NCBI GenBank assembly: GCA_017454375.1
Contig: JAFTDB010000005.1
Coordinates: forward strand, 1 to 64,000
Direction of reading: 5' to 3'
Length of the DNA stretch: 64,000 bases
Origin: Acholeplasmatales bacterium
GTDB lineage: Bacteria > Bacillota_I > Bacilli_A > Acholeplasmatales > Anaeroplasmataceae
Each line of letters starts with the position of its first letter. Position 1 is the stretch's first letter. A program made the translations under genes and the position numbers. Below the pieces are notes generated by a model, which saw only the letters and a program-made list of their open reading frames with translations, searched no databases and was not told where the DNA came from. Shown piece by piece: positions 55,142 through 64,000 of this stretch.

Positions 55142-55166
55142 ACTTTTACGAATGGAGAGAAATTTT

Positions 55167-55415
55167 ATGGAAAAAGATTTAAGCACCTTTAAAATAGGCG
55201 AATCTGGTGTAATCAAATTTGTCTCTGGCGAAGGAAGAGTCAGAAGAAGACTATTTGATATGGGCGTTACACCAGGTGCTCATGTTTGCTTAAGAAAGAA
55301 AGCACCTCTAGGAGATCCACTAGAAATAACTATTAGAGGTTATGAATTAACACTAAGAAAGGTTGAAGCAAAGCTTGTCTTATGCGTAATGGATGAAAAA
55401 GGAGGAAATGAATAA
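55167..55415 (+). CDS. feoA: ferrous iron transport protein A
   Basis: SH3-like protein of 82 residues: STFKIGESGVIKFVSGEG, RRRLFDMGVTPGAHVCLRKK and LGDPLEITIRGYELTLRK are the family pattern. It assists FeoB in Fe(II) uptake. ATG 55167 is chosen because GGAGAGA lies 7 bases before it; the in-frame ATG at 55152 is part of that site. The stop overlaps the feoB start (TAATG). Confidence 0.94.
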   Translation: MEKDLSTFKIGESGVIKFVSGEGRVRRRLFDMGVTPGAHVCLRKKAPLGDPLEITIRGYELTLRKVEAKLVLCVMDEKGGNE

Positions 55416-58093
55416 TGAAGCATTTTGCTCTTGCAGGTAACCCTAACTGTGGTAAAACAACATTATATAATGCCTTAACTGGTTCAACAGCTCATGTTGG
55501 TAACTGGCCTGGTGTTACAGTTGAAAAAAGAGAAGGTACATATAAGAAATTAGAAGAGCCTATCTCAATTGTAGACTTACCTGGTATTTATTCACTTTCA
55601 CCTTATACTCCTGAAGAGGTCATCTCAAGAGATTATATCGTAGAATCTAAACCAGATTGTGTTATCAATATCATTGATGGTACAAACCTAGAACGTAACC
55701 TATATTTAACTACTCAAATTTTGGAAATGGATGTTCCAGTAGTAGTTGCAGTTAATATGATGGATCTAGTTGAAAAAAATGGTGATAGAATTAACTGTGA
55801 AGAGCTTGAAAGAAAATTAGGTATCCCTGTTGTAGCTATTTCAGCTCAACATAATACAAATATGGATATCCTAATGCAAAGAGCTTATGAAGAATCAAAA
55901 AATAAAAGAGTTGGCTCAACTGTATTAGAAAATACAGAAATTAAAGGCTTAATTGAAGATGTAAAGGAAGAACTAGCTTTAGAAGAAGTTCCATCTCCTA
56001 CATTCTATGCAATTAAGCTAATTGAAGAGGATGAAATTATTGTTAAGAAATATCCTAAGGCTTTAAAGAAGGTTTTAGAATATAAACAAACATTTAATAG
56101 TCCAATCTTCGGCAATGACTTAGAAGCATTTGTTGCAGATGCTAAATATAAATATATAGTAGATAATTATTCACCTGTAAAAACAAAGGTAGAAGAAAAA
56201 GAAACAGATTCACTAGAACATACTAGAAAGATTGATAAGGTCTTAACTAATAGATGGGCTGGTATTCCAATCTTCTTAGTATTATTATTCTTAATTTTCC
56301 ACCTAACATTCAGTGAAAATCTATTTTATTTAGGTGGAATCTTCACTGCTAATGGTGTTCATCCTTCATTTGAAGGAACAATGTTTGAAGGATTATTCTG
56401 GACTGATGCCGGAATTAATTCTCCAGGTGTAATACTTCAATCATTTGTTACAAATTGTACTGATAAATTAAGTGAAGTAATTGGTAATGGTTTAGCTAGT
56501 GCTGGTACGGCATCCTGGGTAAGTGGCTTACTTGTTAATGGTATTTGTGCTGGTGTATTCTCTGTATTATCATTTGTTCCACAAATCTTATTGTTATTCC
56601 TATTCTTCTCAATTCTAGAAGATACTGGTTACATGGCAAGAGTTGCCTTCATCCTAGATAGATTATTTAGAAAATTCGGTCTATCAGGACGTGCATTTCT
56701 TCCAATGATTATGGGCTTCGGTTGTTCCGTTCCTGCCATGATTAACACTCGTACCCTTGCAGAAGAAAAAGAAAGAATTGCTACTATCCGTGTAATTCCA
56801 TTCTTCTCATGTGGTGCTAAATTACCTATCTTAACTGCCATTGCTGGTGGTATTTGTGAAGTATTTGGCTTCCCTAATGTTGATTTAATTACTTATTCAA
56901 TGTATTTAGTTGGTATTTGTACAGCCATCTTCACTGTTCTATTAATGCGTAATACATCACTTCGTGGTGAAATTCCTCCATTTATTATGGAATTACCTCA
57001 ATATCATATGCCTCAAGCTAAAGCATTATTTATTCACTTATGGGATAAATTAAAGGGCTATGTTAAAAAGGCATTCACTATTATCTTAGTTTCTACAATT
57101 ATTATTTGGGTATTACAATCATTTACATTCAACTGGAAATATATTGAACCAGCTGATGCAGTAGGCATTGTAAATGATAACTATTCATTAATCGTAGATG
57201 AAGAAGCAATCGCTTCTAAGAAACAAGAAATTGATAATGATACTTCATTATCTGCTGAAGAAAAAGCTTTAGAAAAACAAGATTTAGATGATCTACATAC
57301 AGCTTACATGGTATCACTTGTAGAGGTAGATCCAGAATTTGTAGGTGAAGATGGTGCAGCATCTGTTGAATTTGCTGATGTATATAATGCATATGCAGAA
57401 GCGAAAGAGGCTGCTGATGGCTCTGATGAACAAATTTATAATGAATTAATTCTTCCAGTTTTAAATAAAGCATTAGATGAATATAATGCGATTGTTCATA
57501 ATCCTGAATATCTAGATTCATCAGATTCAATCCTAGCTGGCATTGGTAAGATGGTTCAACCATTATTCACTCCAGTAGGCTTTGGTTCTCAATTAAATGA
57601 AAATGGTTGGGTATTTGGTGTATCAGCTGTAACAGGCTTAATTGCCAAAGAAAATGTAATTGCTACATTCTCAGTACTTGCTCAATCTGTTGTTGATAAA
57701 AATGTAAATACTGCAGAAGATTATTTAAATAAATTATATGTTGTATCTTCTGATGAAGATGGTGTTCCAGCAACTGTATCATTAATTGAAAATACAGGTA
57801 TCGAATTAAAGGGCTGGGGATTTAAAGGTTGGTCAATCCTAATTGCCTTCATTATCTTCAACATGACTACAATACCATGCTTTGCAGCTGTCGCAACAGC
57901 TCGTGGTGAGCTTGGTCATAAATATTTCAGAAATACAGTTATCTTCTGGTTAGTAACATCTTATTTAGTTGCTTCAGCATTCTATATTATGTTATCTGCT
58001 TGGTGGACATCATTTATAGTAGCTGGCCTAATCGCATTATCTGTATTCTTAATCCTCCAAATCAATAAGAAACGAGATCTAAATTTAGCATAA
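55415..58093 (+). CDS. feoB: ferrous iron transport protein B with enlarged loop
   Basis: Fe(II) transporter of 892 residues. The N-terminal G domain has GNPNCGKTTLYNALTG, VGNWPGVTVEKREG, DLPGIYSLSPYTPEE and NMMD. The membrane part has the Gate motifs (PFFSCGAKLPIL and GFGCSVPAMINTRTL). Between two membrane helices at about residues 580-700 there is a hydrophilic, acidic insert (for example SAEEKALEKQDLDDLHTAY) not present in E. coli FeoB. Ribosome binding site GGAGG. Confidence 0.95.
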   Translation: MKHFALAGNPNCGKTTLYNALTGSTAHVGNWPGVTVEKREGTYKKLEEPISIVDLPGIYSLSPYTPEEVISRDYIVESKPDCVINIIDGTNLERNLYLTTQILEMDVPVVVAVNMMDLVEKNGDRINCEELERKLGIPVVAISAQHNTNMDILMQRAYEESKNKRVGSTVLENTEIKGLIEDVKEELALEEVPSPTFYAIKLIEEDEIIVKKYPKALKKVLEYKQTFNSPIFGNDLEAFVADAKYKYIVDNYSPVKTKVEEKETDSLEHTRKIDKVLTNRWAGIPIFLVLLFLIFHLTFSENLFYLGGIFTANGVHPSFEGTMFEGLFWTDAGINSPGVILQSFVTNCTDKLSEVIGNGLASAGTASWVSGLLVNGICAGVFSVLSFVPQILLLFLFFSILEDTGYMARVAFILDRLFRKFGLSGRAFLPMIMGFGCSVPAMINTRTLAEEKERIATIRVIPFFSCGAKLPILTAIAGGICEVFGFPNVDLITYSMYLVGICTAIFTVLLMRNTSLRGEIPPFIMELPQYHMPQAKALFIHLWDKLKGYVKKAFTIILVSTIIIWVLQSFTFNWKYIEPADAVGIVNDNYSLIVDEEAIASKKQEIDNDTSLSAEEKALEKQDLDDLHTAYMVSLVEVDPEFVGEDGAASVEFADVYNAYAEAKEAADGSDEQIYNELILPVLNKALDEYNAIVHNPEYLDSSDSILAGIGKMVQPLFTPVGFGSQLNENGWVFGVSAVTGLIAKENVIATFSVLAQSVVDKNVNTAEDYLNKLYVVSSDEDGVPATVSLIENTGIELKGWGFKGWSILIAFIIFNMTTIPCFAAVATARGELGHKYFRNTVIFWLVTSYLVASAFYIMLSAWWTSFIVAGLIALSVFLILQINKKRDLNLA

Positions 58094-58094
58094 T

Positions 58095-58292
58095 ATGGCA
58101 TTATTCATTGAAATAATGACTGCCATAGCCGCTGTATCAGTTGTTGTGCTTGTTATAGGTAGATATATCTATAAGGAGCACAAGGGACTAAATCATCATG
58201 GCTGTGATGGTAGCTGCTCATATGTTGTTAAAAGAGGATTAAAGAATATTAGAAAAGAACTTGAAAAAGAACATTTTGGAAATTGCAAATAA
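58095..58292 (+). CDS. FeoB-associated Cys-rich membrane protein
   Basis: Protein of 65 residues: one membrane helix (IEIMTAIAAVSVVVLVIGRYIY), then a His/Cys segment HHGCDGSCSYVVKRG and a basic helical end. This matches the small FeoB-associated (p12-like) proteins that follow feoB in many Bacillota. It starts 1 bp after the feoB stop. It may bind iron or stabilise FeoB. Confidence 0.85.
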   Translation: MALFIEIMTAIAAVSVVVLVIGRYIYKEHKGLNHHGCDGSCSYVVKRGLKNIRKELEKEHFGNCK

Positions 58293-58309
58293 TGCAATTT
58301 CCTTTTTTT
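58278..58309 (+). terminator. terminator of the feo operon
   Basis: Perfect 10-bp stem GGAAATTGCA/TGCAATTTCC with an AATAA loop, then TTTTTTT. The stem includes the last codons of the small Feo protein. Confidence 0.93.
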
Positions 58310-58565: not shown

Positions 58566-61500
58566 ATGAGAGGTAAATTAAGAAAAAGCATTATATTTTT
58601 GATATGCTTTGCCGTTATAGGCTTTGGCTTAGCAATATCAAATAATATTTATGCTGAAGAGACGTCACAGGTTGCTAATAATGAGACATCTAAATTATTA
58701 GTTAATGAGTCAACAACAATCACTGTTGCTACAGCTACTGAGGTTTATGTTAATGATGAATTACTTGAAGGAGACAAGATATTAACAGAAACTGGTAAAT
58801 ATGATGTTAAATATGTAAATATTAATCAAGTTATTTCAAAGGATGAAAATGGCGATGATATACTTGATGAGAATGATAATCCAGTATTTGAAGATGTAAT
58901 TACTGAATCTACTAAGACATATTACATCGTTAATCTAAGCTTTGAAGAGGACGAGGTTTATGCTAACGAATTAGAATTAAATTTAGAAGAGGTTAGCGGT
59001 GTAACTTATCTACTTAATGGTGAAGAGGTATCAGGAGATGTATTTGCAACTACAGAAGGAGTGAATACATTAACTATTAAAACAGCTCTTGAAGAGAAAT
59101 CTTATAGCTTTGAAATCTTCAAATTAACAAATAAAAAAGAACTAAATGGTAAAAGATTCACAACTATTCCAACTGTTGAATATACTTTAGGCACAAGTGC
59201 TTTAGTTTATGTAAATGATAAATTATATGATGGATCAATTACTAAAATTGGTAATTATCATTTTGAAGCAAAAAACACTAAGGGTGTTGTAATTGATGAA
59301 CTTGAATTCACAGTAGCCGCTACAGTAAGAATTAACGGTATAGAATATAAAGATATTGAATATACTGAATTAGAAATAAAAACATTAGGCTACAGTATTA
59401 ATAATTCAGGAGTTTCTTTAAAATCTAATACAAATAATTATGCCAAGATTGAATATAACCTAGAATGCAGTAAAGCTACTTTATCAAATAACGATATTTA
59501 TTCAGGCTATACTACATATAATCCAGGCTTAAATACTTTAGTATTAAATGGTGAAGGTTCATATTTCTTAACCATAACATTTAAAAATAATCCTACAACT
59601 AATATTATTTCTAACCATAAATATAATTCTGAGGTTTTACCAATTATATCTGGTGGTAAGATGATTATTAATGGTTATGAATTTTCTCAAGGAAGCACAA
59701 TTAAAACATCAGGCCTTTATGAAATGGTTATTAAGGGCTTAGAAACAGAAAGTGTTGCTACATACAAATTTGAAGTAGCTGAAGAAGAAATGAATATCAC
59801 TTCATCTTCATTTGATAGAGCTGTAATTCCAGCTAAAACAAATAACTACATGACTATTAATGGTACAAAGTATAATAGTGGAGATGTTATATCTGAGGCT
59901 GGTGAATATAAATTTGGCATCTATTATCCAACCTATAATGCATCAGATAATGTAGAAGGTGCAAAAGAATTATTAGATAGCTTTATTAAATCTAAATATG
60001 TAGCTTATAAGGAATATACATTTAAGATTAATAAGGGTATTAATATTGAAAATAATAAAGAATATTATGATTCTAAACAAATCCTATTCTCAGGTGTAGA
60101 TGAAATTGAATTAACATTTGAAGGTGTTACAACTACAATAACTGAATCAGGCTATCTTGCAAATAAGATTGGTGATTATAAGGTAGTATTTGATGGCACT
60201 ACATATAATTTTAGTATTACACCAAGCTTATTAGTATTTGAAAACCAAGTATATTTTAATAATGTAGTTGTTTTAAATGATTATGATTTTGTAAATGGAG
60301 TTAATTTCACACTTGAATGTGAAAATGGTACAACAGAGTCTAATAAATCAGAATATACTAATTCAGCTATTCTAAAGAAGAGCCTAGGAGTTGGTAGCTA
60401 TAAGCTAACTATCACAACTCTATTTGGCTATAAAAAGGAAGTTAGCTTCATCGTTATTAGCTCAAATGTAGTTAATAGAGGTGCTGCCTATAATAATGGT
60501 AAATCATTTAGCTTTAATATGTATGGCGTTAAAGCTTATTTAAATGCCCCAGAAACTTCTACAAGAAATAGATCTACAGCTTTATATCAAAATGAAAAAA
60601 TCAAGTCTGTAGGTAAGCATTATTTCATTTTTGAATTCAATGGAATTTCTACAACAGATGATGATACTGCAGTATTTTTCTATATAAGACCTATTGTCAC
60701 AAAGGATGGAGAGGCCACTACAGAAACTACCCTAAAGGGCGATTTTGAGGCTGAATTAACATTCAAGGATGGTAATGGTGAAGATATTGAAAATGATATC
60801 TATAAGCCACTTTATTTAGATGCTAACTCAAGAGCGTCTCAAATGGAAAAGGATAATTCTATTTATACATTTGATGAAATTGGTAACCATTATATCGATA
60901 TAAAGCTAGATGGTTATTCTTATAGAATAAATCTAACTATTAATTCATATTTCTATACAGATGAAATAAAAGATGAAAATAAGGTAGAATCAGCTTCTGC
61001 AGAAACTTATTTAAACACTCCAAATGTATATGAGTCAGAAGTAACATTTGTAAATGTGTTAAATGATAATTTAGCTGGCTATAAGCTAGATGATAAAGAT
61101 GAAGTAAATGGAATTAAGATCACTTCAATTGGTAACCATAAATTATATTTATATGGTACAAATAATTATAAAAAGGTCTTAGTATTTGTTGTTAAAGAAA
61201 GAGTAGAATTATCTACTAAAGAAGAACTATTACCACAAGCATCTTATGATACTTATACATACAACACCTCAATTTTAATTAAAATATTTGGTAACGGTGA
61301 ATTCTTACTTGATACAAATACTTATGAATCTGAATCATTAATTGACAAGGTAGGTAACCACCTACTAGTAATTAAAGGTGCAAATGGTTATACCAAAAAT
61401 TATAGATTTAGAATTACTGAATCATTAAAAGTTAATTATAAGGGTGTAAAATCAAATGAATTATTAACATCTTATGATGAAGCATTTGATTTTGGAATTA

Positions 61501-64000
61501 ATTATGATAAATGTGCTACATGTAAACTAAATGGTGCACAAGTTGATTCAAATATCACATCAATTGATACAATTGGTAAATACACATTAAAGATTACAGG
61601 TACTAATGATTATGTCTCTACATATTCATTTAAGGTATTACCTACCTTATCATTTGTATCAAATGAATCAGTAAGTGGTACACCACTTACATCTTATAAA
61701 CAAGAAGTAACCCCAACACTTGATAATTCTAAGGGCTTAAAATATCAAAGTGTTACTCTAAATGGCAATGCATATAATTTTGAAACTTTAGATACAGTTA
61801 ACACTTATAAGCTTATCTTAGAGGGTGTATGTGAATATAAAAAAGAATATACATTTAGTATTAAAGAATCTTTATTATATTCATTTGATAATAATACTTA
61901 TACTAATGTATTAAACCGAGTAGAGCCAAAAGATAATAATGTTGGTAAAAAGGTATATATTAAAAAAGAATTTAGTAATATTAATTATTTAAATTCTAAA
62001 TTAAATGGTGTATCAGTATCTGATAATGAACTATCTGATTTTGTTATCGTAGATACACTAGGTGACAATAAATTAGTAATTAATGATGTTACATATGAAA
62101 TTAAATTAAGAGAAATAAACACTAACCTATATTTAACTGAAGCTGATGCTACAACAAATAAGGTAGATCAAATAGAAGAAATCATCTTTAGTGATGAACT
62201 TGTTAAAGATATAAAATTAGATAATGTATCATATGATAATTCTACAATCTCTTCATTTGGTCTTCATAAGGTATTAATTAGTGGTGTTAATTATACTAAT
62301 ACATATTATTTCTATATTAATCTAGATACTAATATCATTAATGATAATGATTATTATACAAACGTAGATATCGTATCAAACGCTAAAGAGGTAGTAGTTT
62401 TAGCTAATACTACTAAGATTAATGGTGTTTTAGACACAGTTGGTACTTATAAAGTTACATTTAATGGTCTATACAACTATAAAGAGACATACACAATTAA
62501 TTTAAAATCTAAATTAATCTGTAATAATGAATTATTAACAACACTTAATACAGCTAATTTAATTAATATTGAATATGAAGCTAATACTAACCATTATAAA
62601 AATATTACTCTTAATGGTAATAATTATTCATTAGAAACAATTAATACCATCGGTAACAATAAATTAGTATTATTTGATATAAATAATAATGAAACTAAAT
62701 ATACTCTAACTATTAATTCAAATAATTATATTAATAGCACTGTATATGAAAATAAAGAAACCGCTCAAAACAATGAAGTAAATAATTTCGTATTAAATGT
62801 TAATACAGATTATTTAGGATCTGTAAAATTAGATAATAAGAATGCTCAACTTACACTTGCTAATAACCAATATGGTCTTCATATGATTAGTATAGTAGGT
62901 GTAAATGGATATCAAGCTGATTATTATTTTGATATTAAGCTTGAATCTAATTTAGAAGCTACTACATATGAATTAGAAAAAGTTATTGAAATGAATGCAT
63001 ATTTTGAGGTGGATTCAAATGTTTTATCAAAGGTTACTGAGGTAGGTAACCATAAGGCAGTAATCTCAAAATACAATATCGATTCATTTGAATATGAAGA
63101 AGTAGAATTTGTAATAACTGAGAAGGTATCTGGCTTTGAGCTAGTAAATAATAGTGTAGTTACACCAGTTATTGAAGGTAATGTATCAGGTGTTATGCTT
63201 TCTAATGTTACAAACTACCAAGCTGGTGATAAGGTTACTAAGGCTGGTAAATATACTCTTAAAGTAACTGGTAGTAATGGATATACAAATAGCTATGATT
63301 TTGAAATTAAACCAGTAATTTCATTTGAAAATTATGATTTTAATTCATTAGTTAATACTAAAGAAGTAAATATTATAAGTAATGATTCTGAATTATCATT
63401 TGAGGTTTATGTAAATGATGTCTTATTTGACACAAATAAATCAATTGATACAATTGGTAATAATAAGGTAGAAATTAAAGGATTTGATTATTCAAATAGC
63501 TATATAATTACTTTAAATGAAGTAACTAATATAACTTCATCTTCATATAAGGCTAGTGATTCATTCATACCATTAGTTACTAACCTACATACTAAATCTG
63601 TATTAGTTGATGGAAATGAATATGATTTATTACCAATAACTTTCTTTGGTAATCATGTATGTAAGGTAGTAGGTGTTAATGGATATGAAGTATCTTATAC
63701 ATTTGATATAGAATTAGATACTAATTTAATGAATGATTCAGAATACTTAAAGAATATCAATGTAGTAGCTAACGCTGATATCTATATTAATAATATAAAG
63801 ACTAATAAATCATCATTTGTAGGCTATAATGAGGTTACATTCAAAGGCTTAAATAAGGAAGCTACTTATAATGTATTAATTAAAGAATTAGTTGAAGGCT
63901 TTAATAATGATAAGTACTTAGCTAACGCCTTAATTAATATTTCTAATATCTCTTCAATTACTCTTGATGGAAAAATTAAAGAATCAGTAGATGGTAATGT
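58566..64000 (+). CDS. giant secreted repeat protein, partial (runs off the window)
   Basis: Open for at least 1811 codons with no stop by the window end. A signal peptide (residues 1-31, hydrophobic IIFLICFAVIGFGLAISNN, cleavage after YA) starts it. The rest is built from about 24 divergent units of 60-85 residues. Each has a core like I-x-x-I-G-N-x-K-L-x-I-x-G-x-N-x-Y-x-x-x-Y-x-F-x-I; examples are ITSIGNHKLYLYGTNNY near 61120, VTKAGKYTLKVTGSNGY near 63235 and SIDTIGNNKVEIKGFDY near 63445. The units look like small beta-sandwich (Ig-like) domains. Cys is nearly absent. It is probably an adhesin or stalk; the anchor would lie beyond the window. GAGGAG precedes ATG 58566 closely. Confidence 0.85.
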   Translation, partial: MRGKLRKSIIFLICFAVIGFGLAISNNIYAEETSQVANNETSKLLVNESTTITVATATEVYVNDELLEGDKILTETGKYDVKYVNINQVISKDENGDDILDENDNPVFEDVITESTKTYYIVNLSFEEDEVYANELELNLEEVSGVTYLLNGEEVSGDVFATTEGVNTLTIKTALEEKSYSFEIFKLTNKKELNGKRFTTIPTVEYTLGTSALVYVNDKLYDGSITKIGNYHFEAKNTKGVVIDELEFTVAATVRINGIEYKDIEYTELEIKTLGYSINNSGVSLKSNTNNYAKIEYNLECSKATLSNNDIYSGYTTYNPGLNTLVLNGEGSYFLTITFKNNPTTNIISNHKYNSEVLPIISGGKMIINGYEFSQGSTIKTSGLYEMVIKGLETESVATYKFEVAEEEMNITSSSFDRAVIPAKTNNYMTINGTKYNSGDVISEAGEYKFGIYYPTYNASDNVEGAKELLDSFIKSKYVAYKEYTFKINKGINIENNKEYYDSKQILFSGVDEIELTFEGVTTTITESGYLANKIGDYKVVFDGTTYNFSITPSLLVFENQVYFNNVVVLNDYDFVNGVNFTLECENGTTESNKSEYTNSAILKKSLGVGSYKLTITTLFGYKKEVSFIVISSNVVNRGAAYNNGKSFSFNMYGVKAYLNAPETSTRNRSTALYQNEKIKSVGKHYFIFEFNGISTTDDDTAVFFYIRPIVTKDGEATTETTLKGDFEAELTFKDGNGEDIENDIYKPLYLDANSRASQMEKDNSIYTFDEIGNHYIDIKLDGYSYRINLTINSYFYTDEIKDENKVESASAETYLNTPNVYESEVTFVNVLNDNLAGYKLDDKDEVNGIKITSIGNHKLYLYGTNNYKKVLVFVVKERVELSTKEELLPQASYDTYTYNTSILIKIFGNGEFLLDTNTYESESLIDKVGNHLLVIKGANGYTKNYRFRITESLKVNYKGVKSNELLTSYDEAFDFGINYDKCATCKLNGAQVDSNITSIDTIGKYTLKITGTNDYVSTYSFKVLPTLSFVSNESVSGTPLTSYKQEVTPTLDNSKGLKYQSVTLNGNAYNFETLDTVNTYKLILEGVCEYKKEYTFSIKESLLYSFDNNTYTNVLNRVEPKDNNVGKKVYIKKEFSNINYLNSKLNGVSVSDNELSDFVIVDTLGDNKLVINDVTYEIKLREINTNLYLTEADATTNKVDQIEEIIFSDELVKDIKLDNVSYDNSTISSFGLHKVLISGVNYTNTYYFYINLDTNIINDNDYYTNVDIVSNAKEVVVLANTTKINGVLDTVGTYKVTFNGLYNYKETYTINLKSKLICNNELLTTLNTANLINIEYEANTNHYKNITLNGNNYSLETINTIGNNKLVLFDINNNETKYTLTINSNNYINSTVYENKETAQNNEVNNFVLNVNTDYLGSVKLDNKNAQLTLANNQYGLHMISIVGVNGYQADYYFDIKLESNLEATTYELEKVIEMNAYFEVDSNVLSKVTEVGNHKAVISKYNIDSFEYEEVEFVITEKVSGFELVNNSVVTPVIEGNVSGVMLSNVTNYQAGDKVTKAGKYTLKVTGSNGYTNSYDFEIKPVISFENYDFNSLVNTKEVNIISNDSELSFEVYVNDVLFDTNKSIDTIGNNKVEIKGFDYSNSYIITLNEVTNITSSSYKASDSFIPLVTNLHTKSVLVDGNEYDLLPITFFGNHVCKVVGVNGYEVSYTFDIELDTNLMNDSEYLKNINVVANADIYINNIKTNKSSFVGYNEVTFKGLNKEATYNVLIKELVEGFNNDKYLANALINISNISSITLDGKIKESVDGN

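Follow-up and report, generated by a model that had tools for sequence, protein, structure and literature searches.

A giant membrane-anchored Ig-like repeat protein, probably an accessory attachment fibre, of a probably wall-less Acholeplasmatales bacterium

The largest open reading frame in the stretch of DNA studied here encodes a giant repetitive protein that we interpret as an accessory stalk of Ig-like domains, anchored in the membrane of a probably wall-less bacterium and probably serving as an attachment fibre. The window, by which we mean the whole 64,000 nucleotides analysed, corresponds to the opening 64 kb of a contig of 126,429 bases, part of a draft metagenome assembly of 1.80 Mb and 36 contigs (92.5% complete, 7.3% estimated contamination). 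It holds the first 1811 of the 3148 codons of the gene on the + strand (58566..64000), where the window end cuts the frame; on the contig the frame is complete (58566-68012) and has zero internal stops. A sequence-only reading of the window had described a giant repetitive surface protein of more than 1800 residues, encoded by the largest gene of the window in an open frame that reaches its end and follows the feo terminator. Retrieval of the full gene, which that reading had called for, confirmed the description and showed the size to be understated, as the whole protein comprises 3148 aa with a signal peptide, ~45 repeat units and a C-terminal transmembrane (TM) helix, a layout that supports a surface protein and makes its display at the surface probable. 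The gene starts downstream of the intrinsic terminator that closes the feo genes (58278..58302, + strand; 1 found vs 0.3 expected), and its base composition is mildly deviant from that of the frames across the window (GC 26.6% vs 30.7%, sd 3.5; GC3 14.3% vs 21.1%, sd 3.7).

The signal peptide occupies residues 1-30 (58566..58655, + strand) and was recognized by hydropathy from a basic start, a hydrophobic stretch at residues 8-26 and an Ala before Glu-Glu, the cleavage point being placed by eye; the same layout is common to the three homologues described below. Hydropathy revealed no further hydrophobic segment between the signal peptide and a C-terminal TM anchor at residues 3118-3136, which is encoded outside the window (contig 67917-67973, + strand) and is followed by the basic ending KNKKKGKEEK, leaving a cytoplasmic tail of ~10 residues. 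All three complete copies of the protein share an ending made of NPN, a TM segment and a basic tail, and LPXTG is absent from the last 80 residues of every copy. Searches of the window genome (92.5% complete) found no match to sortase (PF04203; control positive in three genomes) or to the penicillin-binding transpeptidase domain (controls positive). Thus, the check for LPXTG or another anchor that had been proposed from the sequence alone yielded a plain TM helix. The lack of sortase and transpeptidase matches, together with the affiliation to the Acholeplasmatales (Mollicutes), points to a cell that is probably wall-less, which would explain why the anchor is a plain TM helix. The bacterium is probably a gut or rumen dweller.

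The repeat units were delineated with a hidden Markov model (HMM) that was built from eight units, each 60-62 residues long, of the C-terminal part and then iterated on the giant protein. This model finds 45 units at E<0.01 in the real protein, compared with 4 matches in total over 20 shuffled versions of it. Inside the window there are 24 complete units, in agreement with the ~24 diverged units counted previously: units 1-10 are more divergent and carry insertions (58710..60941, + strand, residues 49-792), while units 11-24 are more regular (61047..63881, + strand, residues 828-1772). Unit 25 straddles the window edge (63924..64000, + strand, where it is cut) and 20 further units lie beyond. 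The spacing of the units is 57-91 aa, and exactly 61 through most of the C-terminal part. The consensus, SVTINISNYASVTLDGNEYESGSTIDTVGNHKLVIKGVNGYEKTYTFTI, includes the G-N-x-K-L-x-I-x-G-x-N-x-Y core that had been noted from the sequence alone.

In the C-terminal part, unit n and unit n+2 reach up to 84% protein identity, whereas most direct neighbours are ~41-62% identical, and Tandem Repeats Finder detects a period of 366 bases, equal to two units. Next-but-one similarity and a two-unit period together show that unit pairs were duplicated and, judging from the sequence, unit number changes through duplication, often as two-unit blocks. Repeats in a draft metagenome assembly raise the concern that the frame or the number of units is an assembly artefact. 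We regard the likelihood of this as next to negligible, since even the closest units compared share no more than 84% identity in DNA, so that reads can place them, and since long uninterrupted frames with colinear order occur in three independent assemblies.

To assign a fold, three units within the window (61221..61868, + strand) were aligned with homologous segments and modelled with AF2, carrying out the structure prediction of 2-3 units that had been suggested for this protein. The model is an all-beta tandem array of predicted Ig-like beta-sandwiches, a fold defined by two sheets and about 7 strands (mean pLDDT 90.5, pTM 0.83), and this well-predicted fold covers three of the ~45 units. 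The best Foldseek matches in the PDB are tandem Ig-like chains (best E 4e-6), and VIA-align gives a best Z of 6.6, for filamin C, with alpha-2-macroglobulin, Fc receptors, EA1 and intimin scoring lower. Ig-like folds among the Foldseek and VIA results include SGBP-B, IgLON proteins, filamin C, the S-layer protein EA1 and intimin; a second S-layer protein, SbsB, was also among the fold matches. As all VIA Z values are below 8, the model supports a general Ig-like fold and no family assignment. An alternative three-unit alignment made with a sliding window was out of register and was discarded. A second model, of residues 28-830 and hence of the divergent units, shows largely beta structure and lacks a large helical domain; with a pLDDT of 53.7 it was not good enough to be searched for related folds and was left out.

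Neither the whole giant protein nor 32 single units matched any Pfam model above cutoff, the whole protein matched no NCBIfam model above cutoff, and no PDB sequence gave a convincing match. Pfam did give weak matches, none of them reaching the cutoff and each confined to one or two units (UB2H, L9_C, ubiquitin-like, Ras-binding and YmzC models); these were set aside, as were profile matches to Ras in the PDB, which were at chance level, and the PHROGs results, which amounted to scattered single-unit matches. We found no description of the protein or of its unit domain in the literature. The unit therefore matches no named family in Pfam or NCBIfam, in line with the sequence-only reading, which had not recognised one, and what was found is an Ig-like fold of unnamed family on a plain TM anchor rather than a known Ig-like family on a standard one. 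The protein is of a familiar kind, but its unit domain family seems to be undescribed.

Full-length homologues are present in 2 of 99 relatives, one of 2696 aa in the same genus (G026) and one of 3365 aa in a different genus of the same family (G030), with best segments 57% and 36% identical. A further homologue (L022), in an assembly with the isolate name Tb.RUG.47, which hints at a rumen origin, is cut by its own contig end. The three complete copies are colinear. Compared with the distant copies (G030 and L022), identity is 14-32% over the outermost 300 residues, the most variable part, and mostly 31-49% over residues 301-900; over the last 150 residues it is 42-47% in comparison with G030. 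The region at 300-900 and the base are thus the best conserved, a pattern that we read, from the outside inwards, as a tip that varies, a neck that is conserved, a stalk whose number of units changes and a base that is again conserved. The G030 (L019) and L022 homologues have an extra N-terminal region of ~400 residues that is absent from the window protein and whose repeat pattern reads like that of a beta-propeller. In another family of the order, a C-terminal fragment (L035, G057:C69) has Ig-like units resembling these and ends in a TM segment; the match is weak (E ~1e-5).

The gene had been described as lying alone, which proved incorrect: a small membrane-protein gene starts 1 nt downstream of it, outside the window (contig 68014-68313, + strand). 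Each of the three complete giant genes has such a gene directly 3' of it (gap of 1 nt, overlap of 1 nt and overlap of 8 nt). The products, of 99, 131 and 106 aa, have three or four hydrophobic segments each and are mutually homologous (pairwise E 5e-22, 2e-8 and 8e-4). Strong matches to this small partner (E<1e-38) occur in 3 of 150 genomes, which are those with complete giant genes. A weaker match in G040 begins 82 bases from a contig end, and the giant gene could be missing from the assembly there; this relative (L053:73-1371), at the contig start, carries a repetitive, acidic tail of 300 residues. Terminators lie on both sides of the pair in the window genome (58278-58302 and contig 68360-68387), where the two genes, together with one for an alpha/beta hydrolase, separate feoB from thiI. 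In several relatives from the genus (L096, L104, L106) feoB is directly beside thiI, which indicates that the pair sits in an insertion. The wider neighbourhoods differ among the three complete giant copies. On this comparative evidence, we consider the two genes an accessory cassette that is gained or lost between relatives. Metal genes lie near all three complete copies, namely feoAB in the window (55152-58093) and, at the loci L018 and L019, hypAB with an iron-type ABC transporter and a P-type metal ATPase; with just three cases, a link to metal genes was set aside as probably chance. PADLOC returned nothing for the giant protein or the small partner.

We propose that the giant is a type I membrane protein, which would be exported by its signal peptide and held by the single C-terminal TM helix and the short basic tail. 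The part outside the cell would be a chain of ~45 small Ig-like beta-sandwiches, standing out from the membrane as a fibre; at an assumed 3.5 nm or so for each domain, its extended length may be in the region of 150 nm. Such a stalk would hold the variable tip away from the bare membrane, and contact would be made by the variable outer end; plant particles, the host epithelium or neighbouring cells would be the most likely targets. For the small multi-TM partner, a role in anchoring, export or signalling is probable. We favour attachment as the most likely use because a changing stalk length, a variable tip and a patchy distribution are, by analogy, common in adhesins. Speaking against it, no ligand-binding motif or enzyme domain supports attachment, and the unit also occurs in small single-copy membrane proteins that look more housekeeping- or sensing-like than adhesin-like.

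Giant Ig-like repeat surface proteins are known from bacteria, among them the Leptospira proteins LigA/LigB, which are Big-domain adhesins, as well as BapA and SiiE. By general description, these share with the giant a long surface chain of Ig-like beta-sandwiches in which the unit number changes, and the Lig type also has an N-terminal export signal; the giant differs from them in its ~65-aa unit with no Pfam or NCBIfam match, its plain C-terminal TM anchor on a wall-less cell and the presence of a small multi-TM gene beside each complete copy. Among Gram-positives, MSCRAMM-type adhesins that are sortase-anchored through LPXTG have a comparable layout, with a signal peptide, Ig-like repeats and a C-terminal hydrophobic segment with a basic tail; lacking LPXTG, a detected sortase and probably a wall, the giant falls outside that class.

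Other functions can be envisaged for a protein of this build. A dense layer of Ig-like chains might stiffen or shield a wall-less cell in the fashion of an S-layer, as the lack of a transpeptidase match in the window genome and the presence of EA1 and SbsB among the fold matches might suggest. However, a search of 100 genomes found the gene in just 3, of which two belong to a genus of 27, a distribution that would be odd for a needed coat; the unit number is free to change and there is no SLH domain, so we judge a structural coat very unlikely. The size, repetitive build and wall-less cell also recall Gli349, the long leg of the gliding machine of Mycoplasma mobile, a protein of 3183 aa with ~100-aa repeats, an N-terminal anchor, a C-terminal foot and a gli gene cluster (PMC7052211). 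Both are repetitive proteins of about 3150-3180 aa on the surface of a wall-less cell, but the giant is anchored at its C-terminus, its units of 57-91 aa (~65 aa, not 100) are shorter and its neighbours are different, with no gli gene order around it; we therefore consider a gliding leg extremely unlikely.

It is also conceivable that the giant is a sensor or receptor, with a ligand-binding tip borne on the Ig-like chain and inward signalling by the small multi-TM protein or another membrane partner. The constant position of the small partner after the giant gene in the three complete copies is in line with this, as are the multi-unit proteins of two other genomes, each encoded in overlap with a multi-TM protein of 599 aa, after which come genes for VWA, PP2C, kinase and Vps4-like AAA proteins, and a short version at a fixed place between ackA and dnaE (both described below). 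On the other hand, no kinase, DNA-binding or other cytoplasmic domain was found in the small partner, no homology between it and the 599-aa protein was detectable, and the giant itself has a cytoplasmic tail of ~10 residues. We consider a sensor unlikely and retain the attachment fibre as the probable function. A very long Ig-like stalk on a seemingly wall-less cell, with a linked partner, makes the holding and presenting of long surface fibres a testable question.

The unit is not confined to the giant. A 72-row profile of it finds matches in 102 of 395 class genomes (single-unit E values down to 2.5e-18 outside the family), so that a domain family absent from Pfam and NCBIfam is found in about a quarter of the sampled class genomes. 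A phylum-wide search matched the same class only; the sample was possibly almost all of that class, and restriction to it is not implied. Seventeen unit-bearing loci (L061:718-1992, L069:643-1992 and 15 further loci, L062-L077), from at least two families of the class, encode nearly always ~430-aa proteins with 2-4 units, and have dnaE beside 15 and ackA beside 12 of the 17, several being cut by contig ends. In the L061 and L069 proteins a signal peptide is combined with a C-terminal TM whose end is basic, and neither protein matches a Pfam or NCBIfam model. The ackA-dnaE protein thus resembles the giant in its signal peptide, unit family (single-unit E to 6e-17), C-terminal TM and basic tail, and single-unit profile matches together with this export and anchor layout place the units of both in one domain family; the ackA-dnaE protein differs in having 2-4 units only and a fixed locus. 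The ~430-aa protein gave no match against viral contigs, and next to the ackA gene of the window genome there is no gene for a unit-bearing protein. Weak unit matches in 600-750-aa proteins (E 1e-4 to 1e-6) were not relied on.

Larger forms, of 11 and 15 units, occur in two other genomes, of two genera, where the multi-unit TM protein overlaps the gene for the 599-aa multi-TM protein (L081/L084 in G156:C3, L080/L085 in G178:C102). Genes for VWA, PP2C, kinase, Snf7/PspA-like coiled-coil and Vps4-like AAA proteins follow in near-same order, a cluster that, with gene names assigned by eye, looks like a TerY-P/ESCRT-like one. A broader reading would therefore make the giant, with its 45 units, the extreme of a signalling- or defence-linked family and no plain adhesin, within a class-wide, undescribed family of membrane-anchored receptors built from a variable head, 2-45 units, a TM and a basic tail, each expanded form having its own membrane partner; we hold this to be rather unlikely. 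The domain family itself, including a membrane protein at the conserved ackA-dnaE locus, is the part of these results most worth following.
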